This document shows positions 5,557 to 16,666 of a stretch of 64,000 nt of DNA, in pieces (position 1 is the stretch's first letter; every line of letters starts with the position of its first letter). A program made the translations under genes and the position numbers. The DNA lies in assembly GCF_023897065.1 (NCBI RefSeq), contig NZ_JAMHIV010000015.1, positions 154,268 through 218,267 on the forward strand, written 5' to 3'. The stretch is from Crossiella sp. SN42. GTDB lineage: Bacteria; Actinomycetota; Actinomycetes; Mycobacteriales; Pseudonocardiaceae. The notes under the pieces were generated by a model, which saw only the letters and a list, made by a program, of their open reading frames with translations, was not told where the DNA came from and did no database searches.

Positions 5557-5651
5557 GGAGGCGTATCCGGCCTGGTGACCGGCGCGGTCTTCAACACCGT
5601 TGAGCGGCAGCAGCTGTCGCTGGCGGGTTCGATTCCCGTCCGCCTCCGCCA
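5557..5651 (+). tRNA. selC: tRNA-Sec (UCA anticodon)
   Basis: A 95-nt selenocysteine tRNA. The acceptor GGAGGCG (5557-5563) pairs with CGCCTCC (5641-5647), followed by discriminator G and an encoded CCA (5649-5651). The anticodon loop CTTCAAC carries TCA at 5591-5593 within a five-pair stem (GCGGT/ACCGT). A long variable arm follows (GAGCGGCAGCAGCTGTCGCT region), then a T-arm with GGTTCGATTCC. The length, long variable arm and UCA anticodon are diagnostic of tRNA-Sec. The 3' end is 12 bases from the selA start, so it is probably cut from a selC-selA-selB transcript. Confidence 0.95.
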
Positions 5652-5663
5652 CCGGGGGCTCCG

Positions 5664-7001
5664 ATGACCGATCCGCGCGCCGACCAGCGTGGGCTCCCGC
5701 ACACCGACGCCCCACCGGCCGATCCCCGCAGGCAGATCCCCCGCACCGACGCCTTGCTGGCTGACCCGCGCCTGGCCGCGGCGGCCGCCACCCTCGGCCG
5801 CGACACGGTCAAGGCCGCCATCACCCGCTCCCAGAACCTGGCCCGCTCCGGTGAGATCGCGCCTGCCGAAGTGGCCGGGCACGCGCTGGCGGCGCTGCCC
5901 ACGGGGGCCAGCAGCCTGCGCCCGGTGCTCAACGCCACCGGTGTCCTGGTGCACACCAACCTCGGCCGCGCCCCGCTCTCCCCCGCCGCTGTGGCCGCCA
6001 TCGCCGCGGCCGCCGGGCCGACCGACGTGGAGTTCGACCTGGCCACCGGCGCCCGCGCCCGCCGGGGCCGGGACGCGCTGGCCGCGCTCGCCGAGGCGGT
6101 GCCGGCGGCCGGTGGCGTGCACGTGGTCAACAACAACGCCGCCGCCCTGCTGCTGTGCGCGCTGGCCATGGCCGCCGGGCGGGAGATCGTGATCAGCCGG
6201 GGCGAGCTGGTGGAGATCGGCGACGGCTTCCGCATCCCGGACCTGTTGCGCAGCACCGGCGCCCGCTTGCACGAGGTCGGCACCACCAACCGCGTGCACC
6301 TGCGCGACTACGCCGAGGCGGTCGGCCAGGACACCGGCTTCATCCTCAAGGTGCACCCGTCCAACTTCCAGGTCACCGGGTTCACCTCCACTGTGGACAC
6401 TGCCGAGCTGGCCGGCCTCGGGGTACCGGTGGTGGTGGACATCGGTTCCGGTCTGCTGCACCCGCATCCGCTGCTGCCGGACGAACCGGATGCCACCACG
6501 GCGCTGCGCGCGGGCGCGACCCTGGTCACCGCGAGCGGGGACAAGTTGCTCGGCGGCCCGCAGGCCGGGCTGCTGCTCGGCGAGGCGGAGTTGGTCGAGC
6601 GGCTGCGGCGGCATCCGGCGGCCCGGGCGCTGCGGGTGGACAAGCTCACCCTGGCCGCGCTGGAGGCGACCCTGCGCGGACCGGAAACCCCGGTGGCACA
6701 GGCACTTTCCGCTGACCAGGCCGAGCTGCTGGCCCGTGCCGAGCAGCTCGCGGCCGCGCTGGCCGGATCCGGTGTGGACGCGGTGGCGGTCCGGAGCATC
6801 GCCGCGGTCGGCGGTGGTGGCGCGCCGGGGGTGCCGCTGCCGAGTGCCGCGGTCAGCTTGCCCGAGCGCTACGCCGCCGCCCTGCGCGCGCTGGCCGTGG
6901 TCGGCCGGGTGGAGCGGGGGCGCTGCCTGCTCGACCTGCGCACTGTTGCCCCGCAACAGGACGATCAGCTGTGCGCGGCGGTGCTGGCGGTGCCGCGCTG
7001 A
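5664..7001 (+). CDS. selA: L-seryl-tRNA(Sec) selenium transferase
   Basis: PLP-dependent enzyme that converts seryl-tRNA-Sec to selenocysteyl-tRNA-Sec using selenophosphate; 445 residues, normal for bacterial SelA. Conserved blocks include LRPVLNATGVLVHTNLGRAPL near residue 90, VEFDLATGARARRG, VNNNAAALLL and the PLP-lysine motif SGDKLLGGPQAG with Lys about residue 294. ATG 5664 has GGGGGCT 6 bases upstream. It is the first protein gene after selC and its stop overlaps the selB start by one base (TGATG). The selenophosphate synthase gene selD is not in this window. Confidence 0.96.
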   Translation: MTDPRADQRGLPHTDAPPADPRRQIPRTDALLADPRLAAAAATLGRDTVKAAITRSQNLARSGEIAPAEVAGHALAALPTGASSLRPVLNATGVLVHTNLGRAPLSPAAVAAIAAAAGPTDVEFDLATGARARRGRDALAALAEAVPAAGGVHVVNNNAAALLLCALAMAAGREIVISRGELVEIGDGFRIPDLLRSTGARLHEVGTTNRVHLRDYAEAVGQDTGFILKVHPSNFQVTGFTSTVDTAELAGLGVPVVVDIGSGLLHPHPLLPDEPDATTALRAGATLVTASGDKLLGGPQAGLLLGEAELVERLRRHPAARALRVDKLTLAALEATLRGPETPVAQALSADQAELLARAEQLAAALAGSGVDAVAVRSIAAVGGGGAPGVPLPSAAVSLPERYAAALRALAVVGRVERGRCLLDLRTVAPQQDDQLCAAVLAVPR

Positions 7002-8698
7002 TGCGGGTGGTGGCCACCGCCGGGCACGTCGACCACGGCAAGTCCACCCTGGTCCGCCTGCTCACCGGGATGGAGCCGGACCGCTGGGCCGAGGAACGCC
7101 GCCGCGGCCTGACCATCGACCTCGGTTTCGCCTGGACCACGCTGTCCGGTCAGGAGATCGCCTTCGTCGATGTGCCGGGGCACCACCGGTTCGTGCCCAA
7201 CATGCTCGCCGGGATCGGGCCGGTGCCCGCGGTGCTGTTCGTGGTGGCCGCGGACGAGGGCTGGAAACCCCAGTCCGCCGAACACCTGGCCGCGATCCGC
7301 GCGCTCGGCGTCCGGCACCTGCTGCTGGTCATCACGCGCGCCGACCTCGCCGACCCGGAAACCGCGCTGCGCCAAGCGAAACAGCACTTGGGCCAGGTTC
7401 CGCACGTGGTGGTCAGCGCGACCACCGGGCAGGGACTGGACGAGCTGCGGGCCGCGATCCTCGCGCTGACCGACCGGTTGCCCGCGCCCGAGCCCGCGGC
7501 GGATGTGCGGCTGTGGCTGGATCGCTCGTTCACCGTGGGCGGCGCGGGCACCGTGGTCACCGGGACGCTCAGCGCGGGCACCATCGCCAAGGGCGAGGAG
7601 CTCCAGCTGGCCTCCACCGGGCAACTGCTCCGGGTGCGCGGCCTGCACACCTTGGGCCGTCAGTGCGACGCCGTGCCCGCGGTGGCCCGGATCGCGGTCA
7701 ACCTGCGCGGGGTCGACCGGGCCGAGCTGGTGCGCGGGGACGCGCTGCTCTCCCCCGGCCGCTGGCGCACCGCGACCGTCGTGGACGTCCTGGTTGCTGC
7801 CGAGCTGCCAACGGAACTGGTGGCGCACCTGGGATCGGTCGCGGTGCCCGTCCGGGTCCGTCCACTGGGGACGGTCGGGGCGCGGCTGCGGCTGGCCCGG
7901 CCGCTGCCGCTGCGGATCGGGGATCGGTTGCTGCTGCGCGATCCCGGCCGGGGCGAGGTGCTGGGCGGGGCGGAGGTCGTCGATCTCGACCCGCGCCCAC
8001 TGCGCCGGGGCGGCACTGCGGCCAGGGCGGTCGAGCTGACCACGAATCCGTTGACGATCCACTTGCGCACCAAGGGTTTCGCTCGGACCGACGAGCTGCG
8101 GGCCGCTGGGTTGCGTGCGCCGGAACCGGTTTTCGCGGACTGGCATGCCGATCCGGAGCACTGGGCCGCCGTGGTCCGGCGCGCGCCCGGGGAGGTCGAG
8201 TCGTGGCGGCAGGCGCACCCGCTGGAACCGGGGATGCCCGCCGAGGCCCTGCGGCAGCGGCTGGACCTGCCCGAGGTGGCGCTGATCGGGCCGCTGGCGA
8301 ACGCGGCGGGGCTGGCGGTGTCGGCAGGGCGGGTTGGCGGCGCGGTGCTGCCCGCGCGGATGGAGCAGGCGCTGGGCGCGCTCGCGGCGGAACTGGCCGG
8401 GAACCCTTTCGCCGCACCGGATTTGGCCCGGCTGGCCGAACTGGGGCTGGGTGGCAAGGAGGTGGCGGCGGCGGTGCGGGCTGGGCGGCTGCTGCGGGTC
8501 GCCGAGGGTGTGGTGCTGTTACCCGAGGCGGTGACTCAAGCCGCGAACGTGCTGGCCAGGCTCGCTGGCCCGTTCACGGTGAGTCAGGCCCGGCAGGCAC
8601 TGGGCACCAGCCGCCGGGTGGCGGTGCCGCTGCTGGAACTGCTGGACCGGCGCGGGATCACCGAACGGCTGGCGGACTCGTCCCGCCGCCTGCGCTGA
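7001..8698 (+). CDS. selB: Selenocysteine-specific elongation factor
   Basis: GTPase that delivers Sec-tRNA to UGA codons marked by a SECIS hairpin. It has 565 residues from ATG 7001, which overlaps the selA stop; GHVDHGKSTL (P-loop, residues 8-17) begins almost at once, as in other SelB proteins. The G3 motif is DVPGHH and the G4 motif is ITRAD. EF-Tu-like domains 2 and 3 follow, then winged-helix repeats to the C-terminus (PFTVSQARQALGTSRRVAVPLLELLDRRG) that bind the SECIS RNA in the known factor. A rare TTA leucine codon lies at 8519-8521. The gene ends in a 41-base convergent overlap with the MauE-like gene. Confidence 0.95.
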   Translation: MRVVATAGHVDHGKSTLVRLLTGMEPDRWAEERRRGLTIDLGFAWTTLSGQEIAFVDVPGHHRFVPNMLAGIGPVPAVLFVVAADEGWKPQSAEHLAAIRALGVRHLLLVITRADLADPETALRQAKQHLGQVPHVVVSATTGQGLDELRAAILALTDRLPAPEPAADVRLWLDRSFTVGGAGTVVTGTLSAGTIAKGEELQLASTGQLLRVRGLHTLGRQCDAVPAVARIAVNLRGVDRAELVRGDALLSPGRWRTATVVDVLVAAELPTELVAHLGSVAVPVRVRPLGTVGARLRLARPLPLRIGDRLLLRDPGRGEVLGGAEVVDLDPRPLRRGGTAARAVELTTNPLTIHLRTKGFARTDELRAAGLRAPEPVFADWHADPEHWAAVVRRAPGEVESWRQAHPLEPGMPAEALRQRLDLPEVALIGPLANAAGLAVSAGRVGGAVLPARMEQALGALAAELAGNPFAAPDLARLAELGLGGKEVAAAVRAGRLLRVAEGVVLLPEAVTQAANVLARLAGPFTVSQARQALGTSRRVAVPLLELLDRRGITERLADSSRRLR

Positions 8699-9203
8699 AC
8701 ACCGGGGCCAGCCAGGCGATCGCGGCGAGCACGAGACTTGCGGCCAGGGTGGGCAGCAGCCAACCTTCCGGCAGCGGCGGCGCAAACGTGGTCACCAGCG
8801 TTGCGGCCGCGGCGAGGACCGCGCGCGCCACCGTCGCCCAGGTGGCTGGGGAGCGGGAGTTGAAGCAGCCGCAAGGCGTGCCGGGCCTGGTGCGCACCAA
8901 GATGCCCAGGTACCCGGCGAAGGCCAGGTAGAGGGCAGTCTGTGGCAGCAGCAGAGCACGGGGCAGGGAGGGCAGCAGCACGGTGGCGGTGGTGAGGGCC
9001 GCGGCCAGAAGTTCGGTGGCAGGCGTGAGCAAGGACACGGGGCGGTGCAGGGCCGGGGGCAGCAGGCGTTGCGCACGGAGCGTGGCCAGGAAAAGTCGGC
9101 GTTCGCGCAGGTGGCCGAGTCCGGCTACCAACAGGAGCAGTGCGGCGCCGAGCGAACAGGCGTTGAGCACGGCGGAGAACACCCGATGAGGGTAGCCGGA
9201 CAC
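8658..9203 (-). CDS. MauE-like redox membrane protein
   Basis: A 181-residue membrane protein of the MauE/DoxX-like group, whose characterised member is needed for disulfide formation or maturation of methylamine dehydrogenase. About four hydrophobic segments are visible: residues 8-28, 57-78, 80-102 and 122-165. A Cys-Gly-Cys pair lies in RPGTPCGCFNSRS (about residues 113-121), the typical MauE location for a redox pair after the second membrane pair. GTG start at 9203. It is divergent from the four-gene operon starting at 9272, leaving 68 bases for a shared control region. A role with the exported six-Cys protein is inferred from context. Confidence 0.8.
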   Translation of the reverse strand: MSGYPHRVFSAVLNACSLGAALLLLVAGLGHLRERRLFLATLRAQRLLPPALHRPVSLLTPATELLAAALTTATVLLPSLPRALLLPQTALYLAFAGYLGILVRTRPGTPCGCFNSRSPATWATVARAVLAAAATLVTTFAPPLPEGWLLPTLAASLVLAAIAWLAPVFSAGGGTSPPAVR

Positions 9204-9271
9204 CCGAATGACGGCTGTTGATCGTCTCTTCGGCCGTGTTTCATGAACCAGCCCTGGCGAGAGGAAAGGTG

Positions 9272-9985
9272 ATGGCGACCCAGCAGTTGACGCTGACCGC
9301 GCCCAGCGGGCGCCGGGTGAGCGTCACGCTGCCCGCGCACACCCCGGTGTCCAGCGTGGCCGCCGGTGTCCGGTTCGCCGGTGGTGTGCACGGCACCGGC
9401 TTCCAGATCGGGTCGCGCGGCTACCACGAGTTCGCGGTCACCCAGGTCGCGCCGATGCGGCAGCGGGAGCGGTTCCTGGTGCACGGCAGGGAGGTCGTGG
9501 TCGCCGAGGCCACCGACGGGCAGTCCTCGCTGGCCACCCTGTTCGGGGTCTACCACGAGCTGATGACCGTCTACTCCGGACCCGCGCCGCACCGGGACGC
9601 GGTGTTCGCGCTGTTCAACTCGTTGCGGGTGCAGGACACCGTGGCCGGGATGGTGGTGCGGCCGCGGTCGGCGACCATGCTGGAGCTGATGAGCGAGCAG
9701 CTCGTCCTGGCCGTCCGGGACCACGGTTCGCTGTCCATTCCCGGTCCGCGCCAGGCCGCCGCGCTCACCCCGCGCTTCGCCGGGGCGCGCACCCGGCACG
9801 GCGAGGTGTGGAAAACTCCTTATCCTGGCGCGGAAGGGTCCTCGCGGGCCAGCGAGCACGCGTTTGTGCTGGGCTGCCCGGCAGGCACCGCCGAGGTGCA
9901 CCTGTGCGACACCGGCGCGACCACCGAACGGCAACGGCTGGACTGGCTGAACGAGATCAACGTGGTCTGGCACAAGGCGAACTGA
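9272..9985 (+). CDS. Unknown cytosolic protein, first gene of the MauD/MauA-like operon
   Basis: A 237-residue soluble protein with no signal peptide or membrane span. I choose ATG 9272 because GAGGAAAGG lies 6 bases upstream; the frame also stays open to GTG 9218. It reads MATQQLTLTAPSGRRVSVTL and contains FQIGSRGYHEFAVTQVAPMRQRERF, VYHELMTVYSGPAPHRDAVFALFNSL and a C-terminal HAFVLGCPAGTAEVHLCDTG with two cysteines. I recognise no family. Seven bases separate it from the next gene, so it is cotranscribed with the exported protein and its partners. It could be a chaperone or modifying factor, but that is a guess. Confidence 0.75.
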   Translation: MATQQLTLTAPSGRRVSVTLPAHTPVSSVAAGVRFAGGVHGTGFQIGSRGYHEFAVTQVAPMRQRERFLVHGREVVVAEATDGQSSLATLFGVYHELMTVYSGPAPHRDAVFALFNSLRVQDTVAGMVVRPRSATMLELMSEQLVLAVRDHGSLSIPGPRQAAALTPRFAGARTRHGEVWKTPYPGAEGSSRASEHAFVLGCPAGTAEVHLCDTGATTERQRLDWLNEINVVWHKAN

Positions 9986-9992
9986 GACGGAT

Positions 9993-10493
9993 ATGTCACC
10001 GGAAATGGCCTTCAACATCATCACCTGGGTGGCGATCCTGGTGCTGTTCCTCGGACTCGCCGCGGTGCTGCGGGAGATCCGCCTGCTGCGCAACGAGGTC
10101 CGGCGCAGCCCGGAGGCCTTCGCGGCCGCCCCGCCGGAGCTGCTGCTCGGCGCCCGGTTCGCCGGGCGGGGGCGGCGGATCGTGCTGGCCGCCGACTCCG
10201 GCTGCCCGCTCTGCCACGCCGTGCTGGACCGGCTGCTGGCCGTGGCGCCCGGCTCGGTGCTGCTGACGCACGAGCCGGAAGCGTTGTGGGCCAAGGTGTC
10301 CGGCCAGCTGGAGGTGGTCAGCGACGCCGAGGTGTGGCGCGCGGTCTCGCACCTGTCGCCGCCGGTGCTGATGCTGGTGGACGGTGCGGGCCGGGCCGAG
10401 CGGGTGCACCTGCCGGTGCGGGTGGCCGAGGTGGACACGGTGCTGGCCGAGTGGCAGCGGATCGTGGTGCGGGGGCACGCCGATGCCGCTTGA
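9993..10493 (+). CDS. MauD-like thioredoxin-fold membrane-anchored protein
   Basis: A 166-residue protein with one N-terminal membrane helix (residues 6-27, FNIITWVAILVLFLGLAAVL) followed by a thioredoxin-like region. The CxxC motif is CPLC in LAADSGCPLCHAVLDRLL (about residues 70-73), and PPVLMLVDGAGR resembles the cis-Pro strand of the fold. The layout of helix, RLLRNEV linker and CPxC is that of MauD, the disulfide-handling protein of methylamine dehydrogenase biogenesis. ATG 9993 follows the preceding stop by 7 bases, and the gene overlaps the next by 11 bases. It is likely to act in the periplasm-equivalent space on the exported Cys-rich protein. Confidence 0.75.
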   Translation: MSPEMAFNIITWVAILVLFLGLAAVLREIRLLRNEVRRSPEAFAAAPPELLLGARFAGRGRRIVLAADSGCPLCHAVLDRLLAVAPGSVLLTHEPEALWAKVSGQLEVVSDAEVWRAVSHLSPPVLMLVDGAGRAERVHLPVRVAEVDTVLAEWQRIVVRGHADAA

Positions 10494-11043
10494 CTTCACC
10501 GACATCCCGGACACCGACCAGGTCCCCGTGGACGCGCGGCCGACCACCGCGTTGCGCGAGCTGGACTTCACCGGCAGCCGCCGCACCCTGTTCAAGGCCC
10601 TCGCGCTGGGCGCGGTCACGGTGGGCGCGAGCGCGCTGAACCTGTTCGGCGCGCGCCCGGCCGGCGCGGAGCCCGGTCCGTACGCCCTGTCCGGCTGGGA
10701 CCGCAACGACTGCAAGGACGCCTACCCCAACGGCTACGCCGAGGTGGGCGACACCACCGGCGCGTACGTCAACACCTACGCGGCCTGCCTGTCCGGCACC
10801 TGGCGCGGCTCGGTGTACTGCGAGAACGGCTGGCACAAGTACGGGACCTATGAACACGGACCGGTGCAGAGCCAGCACGTGCCGATCTCCACCTCCTGCG
10901 GCACCTCCACCACCAAGAACGCGTGGAAGTGGACCACCCCGGACGGCAAGGTGTGGCGCTGTTCTGACGGCTACTCCACGTTCTGGGGTCCTGGCCACAG
11001 TGGACAGACGTACCTGACGATCTGCCGGGCCCCCGTGCTGTGA
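10483..11043 (+). CDS. Tat-exported six-cysteine protein, MauA-like
   Basis: A 186-residue precursor. A twin-arginine signal, SRRTLFKALALGAVTVGASAL, starts about residue 26 after a charged N-region and is followed by a likely cleavage site near AGAEPG. The mature part has six Cys (DCKDAY, AACLSG, VYCENG, TSCGTS, WRCSDG, TICRAP), enough for three disulfides, and several Trp. A C-terminal W-x-C then TYLTICRAPV arrangement recalls the light chain of methylamine dehydrogenase, which also uses a Tat signal and the MauD/MauE helpers. The similarity is weak and the light chain has more cysteines, so the tryptophylquinone cofactor is a hypothesis. The stop overlaps the next gene (GTGA). Confidence 0.75.
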   Translation: MPLDFTDIPDTDQVPVDARPTTALRELDFTGSRRTLFKALALGAVTVGASALNLFGARPAGAEPGPYALSGWDRNDCKDAYPNGYAEVGDTTGAYVNTYAACLSGTWRGSVYCENGWHKYGTYEHGPVQSQHVPISTSCGTSTTKNAWKWTTPDGKVWRCSDGYSTFWGPGHSGQTYLTICRAPVL

Positions 11044-11780
11044 CCAGGCTGCACTGGCATCCGCTGGCCGGAGCCGCCGTGGTGCTCGCGCTCGCCGCCG
11101 CCGCGACGGGTTTGCCCGTGCCGGCCGGGTGGCTGGCGATGGGCGCGGCCTCGGGGTTCGCCACCAGCGGCTCCACCTGAAGCCGGAACTCGGCCCTGGT
11201 GCTGAGCTCGCCGGTCTGGCGAGGCACTCCGGCGGTGGCCTTCTGCCTGGGACTGCTGGGCGGCGGCCTGGTCACCGCGACCGTACTGGTGGTCCTCGGC
11301 TCGCTGCTGCGCGCCCCGCTGCCCGCGCCGGTGCCCTGGCTGCTGGTCGGGCTGATGCTCATCGTGGTGCTGGGCAAGGAGATCGGCTGGCTGCGGATCC
11401 GGCTGCCGGAGAACCGGCGGCTGGTGCCGGAGACGGTGTTCCGGCTGGGGCGGCACGCCGGGCCGTTCCAGTTCGGGCTGGAGATGGGCACCGGGGCGCG
11501 CACCTACCTGCCCAGCGGGCTGCCGTACGTGGCCGCGGTCGCGGTGCTGTTCCTGGCCTCCGTCCCGGCCGCGCTGTGCGCCGGGCTGGGTTTTGGCCTG
11601 GGGCGGGCGCTGATGACCACGGCGAACCTGCGCTTCGGCGAGAGCGGGGCGTGGGACGCGGCGTGGACCCGCCACCGCCGCGTCCTCGCCCTGTTGGTGG
11701 GGCTCGCGTTCCTGTTGGCGCTGCTGGTGTTGCTGCTCAGTGATCCGACAGTCCGTATGCCCGGTGCACGGTCTGGCTGA
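11040..11780 (+). CDS. Candidate selenoprotein: membrane protein with in-frame UGA at codon 47
   Basis: From GTG 11040 (GTGA overlap with the previous stop) the frame runs 46 codons, meets TGA at 11178-11180, and then stays open in the same frame to 11780, giving 246 residues if UGA is read as selenocysteine. The context is GFATSGST-U-SRNSALVLSS. Both sides have the same G/C-rich third positions and membrane character: one helix about residues 8-30 before the UGA, and four after it (about 62-90, 100-118, 155-185 and 218-236). No Cys lies close to residue 47. selC, selA and selB are 2.3-5.5 kb upstream. I recognise no family. Alternatives are a 46-residue peptide plus a separate gene starting at GTG 11199, or a nonsense mutation. 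The 3' end overlaps the S8 protease gene by 44 bases. Confidence 0.7.
11182..11215 (+). promoter_or_regulatory. Hairpin directly after the in-frame UGA, possible bacterial SECIS
   Basis: The upper stem CTCGGC (11189-11194) pairs with GCTGAG (11201-11206) around the loop CCTGGT. A lower stem GCCGG (11182-11186) pairs with CCGGT (11211-11215) across an AA/CTCG internal loop. It begins one base after the UGA, where bacterial SECIS elements sit, and the loop contains GGT. The loop starts about 14 bases after the UGA, close to but not clearly within the described spacing, so the assignment is tentative. Confidence 0.4.
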
Positions 11781-14700
11781 CCGAGTTGCCGTCGGCGTCG
11801 GCCGCGGTGAGCCGGAGCGCGGCGAAACCGTTGCCGCGCGGGTGGTTCAGCAGCGTGTAGCCGTTGGCGCCGAAGCGCAGCACCGGGCTGCGGGTCCAGC
11901 TCTGGCCCTCGTCGTAGGAGACCTCGGCGGTCAGCGCGGTGATCGGGGCGGTGGGTGCGCCCGGCTGGTGGTGCGCGGATAGGTTCAGCAGGTAGGGCGC
12001 TCCGGCGCGGGCGCGGTTGTGCTCGTCGACCTGGCCGGTGGCGCGGATGGCCAGCACCGGCAACGGTTTCCCGTCGCCCGCGTCGCGGAAGGTCCAGCTG
12101 ACCTCGGCGCGGCTGCCCAGGTCGGACCAGGGCACAGCGCGGGTGGCGCTGGCGTGCACGGTGTAGCGACCGCCGGTGGTCGGCACGGTGAACACGCCGG
12201 AGCCTGGGGTGTCGGCCGCGCCGATTTGCTGGCCGTCGCGGGAGAGCGTGGTGCGGCCGGTCATGCCGACCGGCGGTGGCTCGGTGACCAGCGCGGGATC
12301 GTTGCCGGACAACAGCGGCACGCCGAACTGGAGGGTCTCGCCGGTGCGGTGCGCGCCCCAGCCGCGTTCCGGGTCGCCGAAGGCCGGGCCGAGCGGGGCG
12401 CGGTTCCAGGCGGTGGCGGACCGGCCGGGGCGCAGGGTGCGCACGGACCAGTGCAGTTCGGCGTCGGACTCATCCGGCGGGCGGAGCACCAGGAGCTGCT
12501 GCCAGGTGACGTCGGGGTGCGCGGTGAAGTACTCCACCCGCTGGGCGGGCAGGGCGAGCGGGTAGGAGATCAGCATGCCGTTGGTGGTGCCGGGCACCGG
12601 CAGCCGGGCGTAGTCGGCGCGCAGGCCGGTGGCCGGGTGACCCTGGTCGTGGTAGCGACTGTCCACTGTGGCCAGTTCGTGGTCCCGGACGCGGCGGTCC
12701 AGGGTGGCCGGGATGCGGCCGCGTTCCAGGAAGGCCAGGTGGTAGAGGTAGGGGACCGGGCCGGTGGCCGGGTGCGCCGGGCCGAGGGTGGCGCGCTGGA
12801 AGTAGGCGTAGGTGTGGTCGGTGACCTGGCCGGGGGTGGCGACGGCGAAGAGCTGCTGACCGAGGCCGGAGGTCCAGGACAGGGTGGAGGTGCGCACGCC
12901 GGACTTCTCGCCGGAGACCAGGCCGAACTCGCCGTACTGGTGCCGCGCGCCGGGCCGGTCCACGGTGGCGCGGACCGGTTTCGCGGTGGTCGCGTCCAGG
13001 GTCAGCTCGGTGTCGCGGGTCAGGCTGAGTCCGGTGCGGGACAACAGGGTCACCACGGTGGACTGCTCGGCCAGGTCGAGGGCGTTGATGTCGTAGCGGC
13101 CCTTGGGCAGCCGGAGGACCGCGGTGCCGGCGGCGTTGAAGCGGGGTCCGGTGGCCGCGCCGGTGCTGGTGTCCACGGCCTGGGCGAGGGCGGCGCTGAA
13201 CTTGCCGCCACGGCTGCGGATCTTCAAGGTCAGCTGGTAGCTCTCCGGCTCCAGGACCGCGCCGAGGGCGGTGCGCACGGAGATACCTGGCGCGGTGGCG
13301 GTGAGCCGGATGCCCTGCGGCCCGGCCGTTCCGGTGGAACGGGCGGTGACCGCGACCTCGGCACTGCCCCCGGCGGGCACGGTGACCTGGTTGGCGGACA
13401 AGGCAAAGGCCGGGTTCTGGTCCAGGGCCAGGTTCAGCGTGACCGGGGCCGGTCCGTCGTTGTGGTAGCGGACGGTCTTGGTGGCGGACTGCCGGTAGGG
13501 TAAGAACCCGAAGCTGACACTGCCGCTGTCGCGCACGGACTGGCTGATCGCGCGGGCCACGTCCACCCGCCCCGCGCCCTGGTCGAAGACGCCGGCGGTC
13601 GGGGTGGCCGAGCTCATCAGCTGCGGCTTGAGCCGATCTACTGTCCACTGTGGATTCTGTTGCAGCAGCAGGGCGGCCGCGCCGGTGACGTGCGGGGCGG
13701 CCATCGAGGTGCCGCTGGCCCTGCTGTGCCGCTGGTCCACCGGGTCGGCGTCGCCGGTGGGGGTGCCGGGCACGCGGGCGGAGACGATGCCGCTGCCGGG
13801 CGCGGCGAGGTCGGGTTTGACCGCGTGGTCACCCAGGCGCGGGCCGTGGCTGGTGAACGGGCTGGGCGTGTCCTCGGCGGTGACGCTGCCGACGGCGAGT
13901 GCGGCGTCGGCCGAGGCGGGTGCGGTGACCCCGGCCAGCGGGTCCGGCGGGTCGATGCTGCGGTCGTTGCCCGCGGAGACCACGAACAGCGTGCCGTGCT
14001 TGGCGCTCAACGTGTTCAGCGCGGTGGACACCGGGTCGGCGCCGTCGGTGGTGTCGCCGCCGAGGCTGAGGTTGACCACCTTGGCGCGCGGCGCGATCCA
14101 CTCCAGCCCGGCGATGACCATCGAGTCCGGGCAGCCGAAGGCCACGCACACCTTGCCGCTGACCAGCTTCACATCCGGGGCGACCCCGCGGTACTCGCGG
14201 CCGGCCGAGGCGATGATGCCGGCCACGTGCGTGCCGTGCCCGAGGTCGTCGCCGCCCTGCGGCAGGGTGCCGGTGAAGTCCTGCTGGACCAGCAGTTTCC
14301 CGGCCAGGTCGGGGTGGCCGCCGTCGATGCCGGAGTCCAGCACGCCGACGGTGACCCCGCTGCCGGTGAGCCCGCTCTGCCAGGCGGCGGCCGTGCCGAT
14401 CTGCGGCACGCTGGTGGCCAGGGTGGGTTGGGCGGTCCCGTCCAGCCACACCTTGCCGAGTCCGGCCGGGCGGGTGCGCACCCAGTCCCAGAACTCGGCG
14501 CCCTTGGCGCGCACGGCCGCGCCGTTGATCGCGGGCAGCGCGCGGACCGTGCGGCCGCCGACCACCCCGGCGGCGCGGGCGCCGGTGTAGGTCAGGATGA
14601 CCGGGGTGTCCCCGGCGGGCTGCCGGGCCAGGGTGGTGACGTCGAACAGGCGCGGGTCCAGGCGGCCCTCGGCCAGCAGCGGCACCGCGTCCGCGGGCAC

Positions 14701-14949
14701 CACCCGGTGGTGGACGCCGTCCTTGCCGGTGGTGGTCTCGCGCAGGAAGCCGAGTTTCTCCCGGCCGGGCGCGGGTTCCACCAGCAGGGTGACCGTGCGG
14801 TCGGGGGCGGTGGCCAGGCGCACCCGGTCGCCGGTGACCAGGGTCACGGTCCGATTGTCCTTTGTGGCAGCCGGAATGGCCGGGGCAGGGTTGGCCGCGG
14901 CCGGTTCTCCTACCGGCAGCAGGGCGGCTACCAGGACCAGCGCAGCCAT
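11737..14949 (-). CDS. Large secreted subtilisin-family (S8) serine protease
   Basis: Exported serine endopeptidase of 1,070 residues. I start at ATG 14949 because the signal peptide (MAALVLVAALLPVGEPAAA) begins there; the frame is open a further 52 codons. A propeptide-like region (RTVTLVTGDRVRL) is followed by the catalytic domain with Asp in VGVLDSGIDGGHPDL (about 204), His in LGHGTHVAGI (about 241) and Ser in SGTSMAAPHVTGAAALLL (about 413). The remaining 600 residues are beta-rich, with Fn3-like stretches (APVTLNLALDQNP). This matches the long actinomycete extracellular subtilases. The gene stands alone and converges on the candidate selenoprotein gene. Confidence 0.93.
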   Translation of the reverse strand: MAALVLVAALLPVGEPAAANPAPAIPAATKDNRTVTLVTGDRVRLATAPDRTVTLLVEPAPGREKLGFLRETTTGKDGVHHRVVPADAVPLLAEGRLDPRLFDVTTLARQPAGDTPVILTYTGARAAGVVGGRTVRALPAINGAAVRAKGAEFWDWVRTRPAGLGKVWLDGTAQPTLATSVPQIGTAAAWQSGLTGSGVTVGVLDSGIDGGHPDLAGKLLVQQDFTGTLPQGGDDLGHGTHVAGIIASAGREYRGVAPDVKLVSGKVCVAFGCPDSMVIAGLEWIAPRAKVVNLSLGGDTTDGADPVSTALNTLSAKHGTLFVVSAGNDRSIDPPDPLAGVTAPASADAALAVGSVTAEDTPSPFTSHGPRLGDHAVKPDLAAPGSGIVSARVPGTPTGDADPVDQRHSRASGTSMAAPHVTGAAALLLQQNPQWTVDRLKPQLMSSATPTAGVFDQGAGRVDVARAISQSVRDSGSVSFGFLPYRQSATKTVRYHNDGPAPVTLNLALDQNPAFALSANQVTVPAGGSAEVAVTARSTGTAGPQGIRLTATAPGISVRTALGAVLEPESYQLTLKIRSRGGKFSAALAQAVDTSTGAATGPRFNAAGTAVLRLPKGRYDINALDLAEQSTVVTLLSRTGLSLTRDTELTLDATTAKPVRATVDRPGARHQYGEFGLVSGEKSGVRTSTLSWTSGLGQQLFAVATPGQVTDHTYAYFQRATLGPAHPATGPVPYLYHLAFLERGRIPATLDRRVRDHELATVDSRYHDQGHPATGLRADYARLPVPGTTNGMLISYPLALPAQRVEYFTAHPDVTWQQLLVLRPPDESDAELHWSVRTLRPGRSATAWNRAPLGPAFGDPERGWGAHRTGETLQFGVPLLSGNDPALVTEPPPVGMTGRTTLSRDGQQIGAADTPGSGVFTVPTTGGRYTVHASATRAVPWSDLGSRAEVSWTFRDAGDGKPLPVLAIRATGQVDEHNRARAGAPYLLNLSAHHQPGAPTAPITALTAEVSYDEGQSWTRSPVLRFGANGYTLLNHPRGNGFAALRLTAADADGNSVSQTVHRAYGLSDH

Positions 14950-15070
14950 TCGGACGAAGTGGACACCACCTGATTGGCGGTCGGCATTCCGGGACACCGC
15001 CGGAGTATCACCGGGTTGGCGCAATGGGTGTAGCCGCCAGGCAGGTGACGGCCTCACCCGGTTGGCGGGT

Positions 15071-16666
15071 TCAGCCCAGATCGCGCCGCCGCAGCCCGAG
15101 CACACCGGTTCCGGCCAGCGCCAACGTCACCGCGGTCAGCGCCAGCAGCGGCAGTGTGGTGAACTCGCCGCCGGAAAGCACCTTGGGTATGTGGTGGAAC
15201 GGCACGATCTGGTTGGCCAGCCAGTAGTCCACGCCGAGCACCGGGCCGAGCTGTTCGCCGAGCAGGTTGCACAGCAGCCACACCGACCAGGAGATCGCCG
15301 CGGCGGCCCTGGGCAGGAACCCGAAGGCGAGCACCGCGACCGCGCCGATCGTCCAGGCCGCCGGGACCTGCACCAGCGCGCCCAGCAGCACCCGGCCGAG
15401 CTGAGTCGAGTCCGAAGTGGACAGTGCGTGCACGGCGCCCGCGGCCAGGCCGCCCGCGCCCAGCATCACTGCGGTGCCCAGCAGCGCGAAGGCGAGGTGG
15501 CTGAGCGCCCAGCGGGTCCGGCCGACGGTGGTGGACAGGGTCAGCTCGGCCCGGCCGTCGGCCTCCTCGGCGCGCAGGCGCAGTGCCACCAGCATCGGGT
15601 ACAGCGCGGCCACGCCGCCGAGGCTGAGCAGGACCAGCCACAGGTAGGTGTCGGCGATCCCGGCCTCCGGACTGGCGGCGTACCGGCGGAAGAACTCCTG
15701 GATGGCCGGGCCGCCGCGACCGGCGATCTCCGGCATGCCCGTGGCCACCGTCGCGGTGGCCGCCCCGGCGACCGCGAACCCGGCGGTCCAGCCGAGCAGC
15801 TGCCCACGGTGCAGCCGCCAGGCCAGGCCGAAGGCCGACCGCAGCCGCATGGCGGTCGCGGGTCCGGGCCGGGTGGGCAGCACGCCGGCGCCGTGGTCGC
15901 GGCGCGCCACCAGCAGGACGGCCAGCGCGGTCAGCGACACCGTGGCCAGCAACGGAAGCAGCAGCACCGCCCAGCGCGGGTCGCCGGTGGGTTCGAGCAA
16001 GTGACTCCAGCCGGTGGGGCTGAGCCAGCGCAGCCAGAGCAGGCCGCTGCCGTCGGCCAGGAAGCGCAGCAGGTAGGCCAGGCCGAAGCCGGTGGCGGCC
16101 AGCGCGGTGGCGGTGCGGGCGCGCGGGGTCAGCTGCGCGGTGACCGCGGCCAGCGCGCCGAACACCAGGCCGGGCGCGGCCACCGCGAGCCCGAGGGCGA
16201 GCGCGTTGACGGCGGGGAATCCCATGGCGGGCAAGCCGATCGCGACCAGCGTGCCGGCGCCGAGGGCGGCGATCCAGGTGAGCAGCAGGGCGGCGGCGAG
16301 CCCGGCGTGGCGGCCGATCGCGCCCGCGCCCAGCAGTTCGGCGCGGCCGGACTCCTCCTCGGCGCGGGTGTGCCGCACGGTGATCAGCACGGCCATCAGC
16401 GAGACCAGCGCGTAGGCGATGTCGCCGATCTTCCAGGCGGTCAGCGCGGGCAGCCCGGCGCCGTGCACCTGGCCGGTGAAGGCGCTCAGCGCGGTGTTGC
16501 CGGTGACCTCGGCCAGGAACGCCTGCCGCAGCTCGGCGGTGGGGAACAGGCGCGCGTACTGGGCGGCGGTGCCCAGCACCAGCAGCGTGACCAGGCCGAC
16601 CCAGGCGGGCAGCAGCAGCCGGTCGCGGCGCAGGAACAGGCGGAACAGCAACCCGGCGCCGGTCAT
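15071..16666 (-). CDS. ABC transporter permease, exporter type
   Basis: A 531-residue membrane protein with about twelve hydrophobic segments in two similar halves ([18 protein letters not shown] and [16 protein letters not shown] mark the starts). This is the layout of the large permeases paired with a single ATPase in actinomycete antibiotic exporters of the TnrB/multidrug type. The repeated [10 protein letters not shown] and [13 protein letters not shown] motifs in cytoplasmic loops are typical of this group. Its ATG overlaps the stop of the ATPase gene (ATGA), so the two are translated together. The substrate is unknown; no biosynthetic genes are adjacent. Confidence 0.88.

Follow-up and report, generated by a model that had tools for sequence, protein, structure and literature searches.

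In a 64,000-nucleotide stretch of Crossiella sp. SN42 DNA (contig NZ_JAMHIV010000015.1; hereafter the window) a reading frame that starts with GTG 11040 is open except for a single TGA at 11178-11180 and continues in phase to its stop at 11778-11780. Is this TGA a stop codon, or is it read as selenocysteine (Sec)? A sequence-only reading of the window had proposed the latter and suggested a new selenoprotein. Re-reading the sequence confirmed the frame as described, the overlap of the preceding gene (10483-11043) with GTG 11040, which amounts to 4 nt (GTGA), and the location of the Sec machinery 2.3-5.5 kb away, with the genes for tRNA-Sec, SelA and SelB all upstream. Sequence comparisons now support the suggestion: Sec is very probably the residue at codon 47, and the window gene together with its relatives very likely constitutes a new selenoprotein family. 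The redox role that we propose for the protein is tentative. Taken as a whole, a selenoprotein gene, with this role as the tentative part, is in all probability the best explanation for 11040-11780. Computation shows that the UGA is conserved, that a hairpin resembling a bacterial Sec insertion sequence (bSECIS) is conserved too, that the gene co-occurs with SelA, that UGA and Cys replace each other in a sister family, and that the gene is part of an operon.

Relatives were collected by scanning a nine-row alignment against one genome per species (84,980 species). Altogether, 121 were found, and the UGA counts for the window's family (the main family) rest on the 79 loci listed among them. Cys forms could have been found, because one of the two search patterns demanded Cys at the site. 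The TGA is in frame in all 79 loci (78 by script, L030 by eye) and is part of the motif SGS-x-U-[ST]-x-N-S; neither TAA, TAG nor a sense codon occurs at the site. The loci cover 24 named genera and metagenome-assembled genomes (MAGs). A homologue was present in six of 60 genomes searched, including the window's own, and the in-frame TGA was seen in the orthologues of two congeners as well as in paralogues in the window's genome and three congeners. For the 20 codons upstream of the TGA the ratio of nonsynonymous to synonymous change (pN/pS) is 0.11-0.54 in five groups of relatives. Six codons separate the TGA from GTG 11199, a possible downstream start; they are conserved in amino acids, nonsynonymous changes amounting to 0-0.094 per site in the five groups.

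The loci listed represent 74 host genomes, and SelA was detected in 73 of these (50/50 and 23/24). In the window's genome SelA was found once only, at the window. Presence of the tRNA-Sec gene was tried as a further test and rejected, since all 46 genomes match at E ≤0.001, with other tRNAs cross-matching. Seven SelA-negative genomes peak at 42.6-50.9 bits, which is within the background (up to 52.8 bits), and 38 others reach at least 56.5 bits; G487, which is SelA-positive, scores just 44.2. Formate dehydrogenase (TIGR01553), the only known selenoprotein sought in the window's genome, gave nothing above the cut-off and no match with an internal TGA.

When 396 genomes of the phylum were searched, a distant sister family emerged as well, and its four matches in SelA-negative genomes all have Cys. 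Comparison of the profiles (54 main and 15 sister rows) gave a probability of 99.4 and placed the Sec column on the Sec/Cys column of the sister family. The sister alignment was then run against the same 396 genomes, giving 79 matches in 72 positive genomes. Of these matches 73 were taken (omitted were two matches in the window's genome, the second one in G477 and three partial ones, G336:C174, G406 and G295); one produced no hit, and the column lay outside three more, so that 69 rows were read. SelA-positive genomes have UGA in 59 rows and Cys in three, one of which is a CcdA-type protein, and SelA-negative genomes have Cys in seven of seven. Comparing residue 47 between genomes that have the Sec machinery and genomes that lack it, as the sequence-only reading had advised, thus gave UGA or Cys throughout, with an exchange in the sister family only; a residue other than Cys or Sec, which would have spoken against a selenoprotein, was found in neither family wherever the site was readable. 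Among the sister-family database relatives listed, 111 of 120 carry Cys.

In one SelA-positive genome, G206 (L164, L202), a Cys form of the sister family occurs alongside a UGA form. At L127 (7735-9163) and L119, both SelA-negative, the Cys form is extended far beyond the usual C-terminus, and the added part may be a repeat or propeller domain; the L127 protein matched no Pfam family. Very remote members with an in-frame TGA were seen at L198 and L201 (both TLP-U-GPN) and at L193 and L202 (both SG-U-G) and possibly belong to further selenoprotein families.

According to PMC13188914, the bSECIS model requires a loop 16-37 nt downstream and a G within the first two loop positions. With an energy threshold of at most -7.5 in our hairpin test, the predicted window hairpin agrees with the model: its loop, GGUCU, begins 32 nt past the UGA, and its energy is -9.4 kcal/mol. 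The 89 main-family UGA places were reduced to 73 distinct rows of UGA plus 51 nt, leaving out 10 identical rows, L058, L069 (one codon shorter) and four repeat loci; for L027 and L058 the row used is a second copy within the same locus. L058, which is full length and absent from the 73-row alignment, passes the hairpin scan at -11.1. Without an imposed structure, RNAalifold gives one hairpin for the 73 rows (columns 30-46, loop 36-40). When the loop pair N1-N2 is included, 98.6% of its cells are paired versus 89.6% in shuffles, a value that none of 500 shuffles reached; the covariation score and the number of two-sided cells were likewise reached by 0/500. Spacing is 32 in 72 and the loop is GGUCU in 66 of 82 main-family rows. 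A bSECIS-type hairpin was detected in 74/82 of these rows versus 122/492 control windows further down the same genes, and in the sister family in 51/58 UGA rows, 1/9 Cys rows and 76/268 control windows. Synonymous change per site is lower in the hairpin codons (0-0.113) than downstream (0.136-0.357) in all five groups.

Two signals from the alignment were discarded. Covariation of TCG/GCG with CGA,CGG/CGC (51 and 20 of 73 rows, plus one TCG-CGT and one other) is striking but amounts to a single change on a tree of 63 rows, and its p value was therefore not used. The changes in the loop pair (GC 61, CG 6, AU 4) and the differently built stems of the sister family are better evidence than this covariation. 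An upstream hairpin in alignment columns 12-29 is not supported as a separate structure, with 87.9% of cells paired versus a shuffled mean of 86.8% and 5/500 shuffles as high.

The gene belongs to an operon whose members and neighbours are listed in Table 1.

Table 1. Features of the window that bear on the predicted selenoprotein gene (window coordinates).
Feature	Position	Strand	Remarks
tRNA-Sec (selC)	5557..5651	+	
selA	5664..7001	+	PF03841, 3.2e-99
selB open reading frame	6971..8698	+	GTP_EFTU and SelB winged-helix domains
MauE-family membrane protein, divergent from operon	8658..9203	-	PF07291, 4.6e-20
First operon gene, family without recognised relatives	9218..9985	+	Pfam single-member hits only, best 0.007
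Membrane-anchored thioredoxin-like protein, CPLC (CxxC protein)	9993..10493	+	MauD/TlpA-like by resemblance
Cys-rich protein, twin-arginine N-terminus (Tat-signal protein)	10483..11043	+	putative client
Predicted membrane selenoprotein gene	11040..11780	+	246 residues, GTG start, TGA stop 11778-11780
In-frame TGA, predicted Sec codon 47	11178..11180	+	TGA in 79/79 loci listed; aligns with sister-family Sec/Cys column
Predicted SECIS hairpin	11207..11223	+	6 bp stem, GGTCT loop 11213-11217, -9.4 kcal/mol

Conservation of the operon was surveyed in 91 loci, of which three are repeats, many are cut short and six belong to sister or remote groups; the window gene is matched in 86. Using tblastn, relatives of its neighbours were found to be present for the first gene in 62 loci, for the twin-arginine translocation (Tat)-signal protein in 59, for the CxxC protein in 33 and for MauE in 20, and SelA and SelB were found in 17 each. 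Where found, the first gene (60/62), the Tat-signal protein (59/59) and the CxxC protein (33/33) are encoded upstream on the same strand. All 27 loci in which the four genes were found have them in the same order. Invariant residues are Arg33-Arg34 and Cys102, 113, 139 and 160 in the Tat-signal protein (25 rows) and Cys71 and Cys74 in the CxxC protein (13 rows). The CxxC protein has no Pfam hit, and its thioredoxin-fold matches in the PDB are weak (best E 0.033). Pfam gave nothing significant for the Tat-signal protein, with three of 25 members matching TAT_signal weakly and others showing single hits; its model, with a mean predicted local distance difference test score (pLDDT) of 78.4, has no clear solved relative, and the matches listed include no chain of methylamine dehydrogenase.

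A second copy of the gene lies on G000 contig 31 of the window's genome (57270-57974; L008, L112), with the same in-frame TGA and with Tat, CxxC and first-gene neighbours of its own. The 3′ end of the window gene is overlapped by a convergent subtilase gene on the - strand (11737-15105); a subtilase is in the same place in nine Amycolatopsis loci and was matched somewhere in 13 of 91 loci. Next to the Cys form of the sister family in L127 are a MauE-domain protein with CRVC and a Cys-rich RR protein, followed by the membrane protein, an order similar to that of the operon. Cys-rich proteins with an RR-type N-terminus followed by FCC, and often GWW, are encoded near the sister genes in L114, L116, L117, L118 and L121 and also in L122, L123, L125, L126 and L128. 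The L122 and L126 proteins, and the L127 protein, matched no light-chain family in Pfam (L122 gave FG-GAP repeats only), and no solved relative was found for that of L126.

The full-length product was modelled with AlphaFold2 (pLDDT 92.7, predicted template modelling score 0.90). It is predicted to be a multi-helix membrane protein in which order begins at the N-terminus; two helices, 8-24 and 27-41, precede Sec. NCBIfam gave no hits for it at E up to 1. A relation to DsbD and CcdA is suggested by the sister family, of which 8/15 members match DsbD_2 (best 2.1e-6) and 4/15 match DsbD_TM (best 3.8e-6) at E up to 1; the DsbD scores of L103 are 20.9 and 16.6 bits versus cut-offs of 24.9 and 27.1, and one database member, P0241, carries PF13386. 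Comparison of the sister family with a CcdA-type protein by hhalign (92.8) aligned WSPC with LSPC, which puts the Sec/Cys column on the SPC cysteine, the residue that we take to be the first catalytic cysteine of DsbD/CcdA. A second conserved Cys was not found in either alignment: apart from the Sec/Cys column, none reaches 25% of rows with Cys or Sec. Compared with DsbD/CcdA (PF02683, PF13386), the likeness thus consists of the weak model matches of the sister family and the position of its Sec/Cys column, whereas the window subfamily has no direct match, Sec instead of Cys and no second conserved Cys. From this we infer that the window family is a remote branch of the DsbD/CcdA thiol reductases with Sec at the SPC cysteine and the second Cys lost. 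The window protein may work like a DsbD/CcdA protein, although it is not filed as one.

In the mechanism that we propose, UGA codon 47 would be read as Sec by the products of selC, selA and selB, directed by the predicted hairpin. A mixed selenenylsulfide would link the lone selenol to the CxxC thioredoxin-like protein, whose gene lies two positions upstream, and the two proteins would carry reducing equivalents across the membrane in one direction or the other. The pair would then reduce, isomerise or form disulfides in the Cys-rich Tat-signal protein of the same operon. Possibly, and we put it no higher, the locus is a selenium-dependent membrane redox operon, missed so far through truncated database entries, in which a lone intramembrane Sec replaces the DsbD Cys pair and serves the folding of an exported Cys-rich protein.

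Several observations weigh against parts of this reading. One host genome, the MAG L075, has no SelA match. A Cys form of the window's own subfamily was found neither in the 120 database relatives nor in the 79 loci listed, and the Sec/Cys exchange comes from the sister family, with none in the narrow subfamily. Three sister Cys copies are in SelA-positive genomes. A tree of 67 of the 69 sister rows needs just two Sec/Cys switches; the exchange therefore counts as two events, not sixty-nine, and the exact-test p of 1e-7 overstates it. As for the hairpin, two of the five pair measures were reached by 19/500 and 70/500 shuffles, 20 of the 32 two-sided stem cells are the commonest change, which is one event on the tree, and eight of the 82 main-family rows miss the energy threshold, seven of them still with a hairpin at -5.1 to -7.3. 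Concerning DsbD, two Cys sister members scanned alone matched neither DsbD_2 nor DsbD_TM at E up to 0.1, the window protein and 53 aligned relatives matched no DsbD model at E up to 1, and the predicted structure of the Sec protein has no clear PDB match and no DsbD/CcdA among the matches listed.

The current annotation treats the TGA as a true stop, which would separate a short upstream peptide from a protein starting near 11199. The protein database contains 196 relatives of the window protein, and all 120 among those listed start after the TGA; GTG 11199 could serve as such a start. Homologues of this kind were named by the sequence-only reading as grounds for giving up the selenoprotein, and they do exist. 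Since the upstream frame and the TGA are conserved in the DNA of 79 loci, their starts are better explained as truncated annotation. Against a stop also speak the absence of TAA and TAG, the conserved six codons before GTG 11199, the sister family, which reads the column as Cys in one frame, and the model, ordered from its first residues. We consider a true stop very improbable. Just as improbable is that UGA is read as Trp, Arg or Cys through a suppressor or near-cognate tRNA. UGA is misread by near-cognate tRNAs in some bacteria, but the presence of SelA in nearly all host genomes and the bSECIS-type hairpin argue for Sec, and the seven SelA-negative relatives read have Cys, not Trp or Arg. 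Least credible of all is a sequencing error at 11178 or a pseudogene: two independent genomes of the genus share the same TGA at 87-90% identity, it recurs in the loci listed, and the gene is under purifying selection.

A different question is what the Sec residue does. It could bind a metal, or reduce peroxide or methionine sulfoxide in the membrane, without disulfide exchange. We find this rather unlikely, as the sister family is DsbD-like at the Sec residue and the operon encodes an exported Cys-rich protein along with the CxxC protein.

The YeeE/YedE and SO_0444 efflux selenoproteins presumably sit in the membrane. As membrane proteins, these two catalogued families (PMC13188914) resemble the window family. 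Table 1 of the same source (2026) catalogues 119 prokaryotic selenoprotein families and subfamilies, and deep-Sep (PMC12013277) is one of its sources. No row of that table has the motif SGSxU(S/T)xNS or WSPUG or an equivalent description. The window family shares with the catalogued selenoproteins the UGA, the downstream bSECIS and the Cys homologues (PMC13188914). By letters, the nearest catalogued motif is SxSUG of DUF523, and DUF523 is not among the families listed for the 15 sister and 54 main members. TsoB (NF045694; PMC13188914, Table 1) is similar in being a selenoprotein named for a DsbD-like part (rhodanese/DsbD fusion-like), but it has two Sec in UxxxxU, compared with one in the window family. 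Its model matched one of 54 subfamily members (E 0.061) and not the window protein. At title and abstract level, no published description of the window family was found.

The neighbourhood resembles the mau maturation genes in its adjoining MauE-family gene, its CxxC membrane-anchored protein and its Cys-rich exported protein; it differs in that neither Pfam nor the solved structures gave a significant match for the Cys-rich protein. Formation of disulfides in the methylamine dehydrogenase beta subunit has been suggested, as a speculation, for MauE (PMC7794033). The same source describes candidate families of Streptomyces that include mauE and, in one case, mauD as well, each with a precursor containing at least eight Cys, for which peptide natural products were proposed; these clusters may be operons of the same kind. 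Amycolatopsis vancoresmycina DSM 44592 is listed as an orphan SelD organism (PMC5029168), and A. vancoresmycina NRRL B-24208 (L014) has a window-family gene and SelA.

If the proposal is true, the known selenoproteins gain an integral-membrane family from actinobacteria. A blind spot may come to light as well: a narrow family for which no Cys relative is found would be passed by in searches for Sec/Cys pairs, and the listed database entries begin the gene after the UGA. A single-selenol relative of DsbD would raise the question of how a membrane thiol conduit works without the second cysteine. For the window's genome the gene offers a candidate purpose for the Sec machinery, and the window family and its sister clades would explain widely why actinobacteria retain it.
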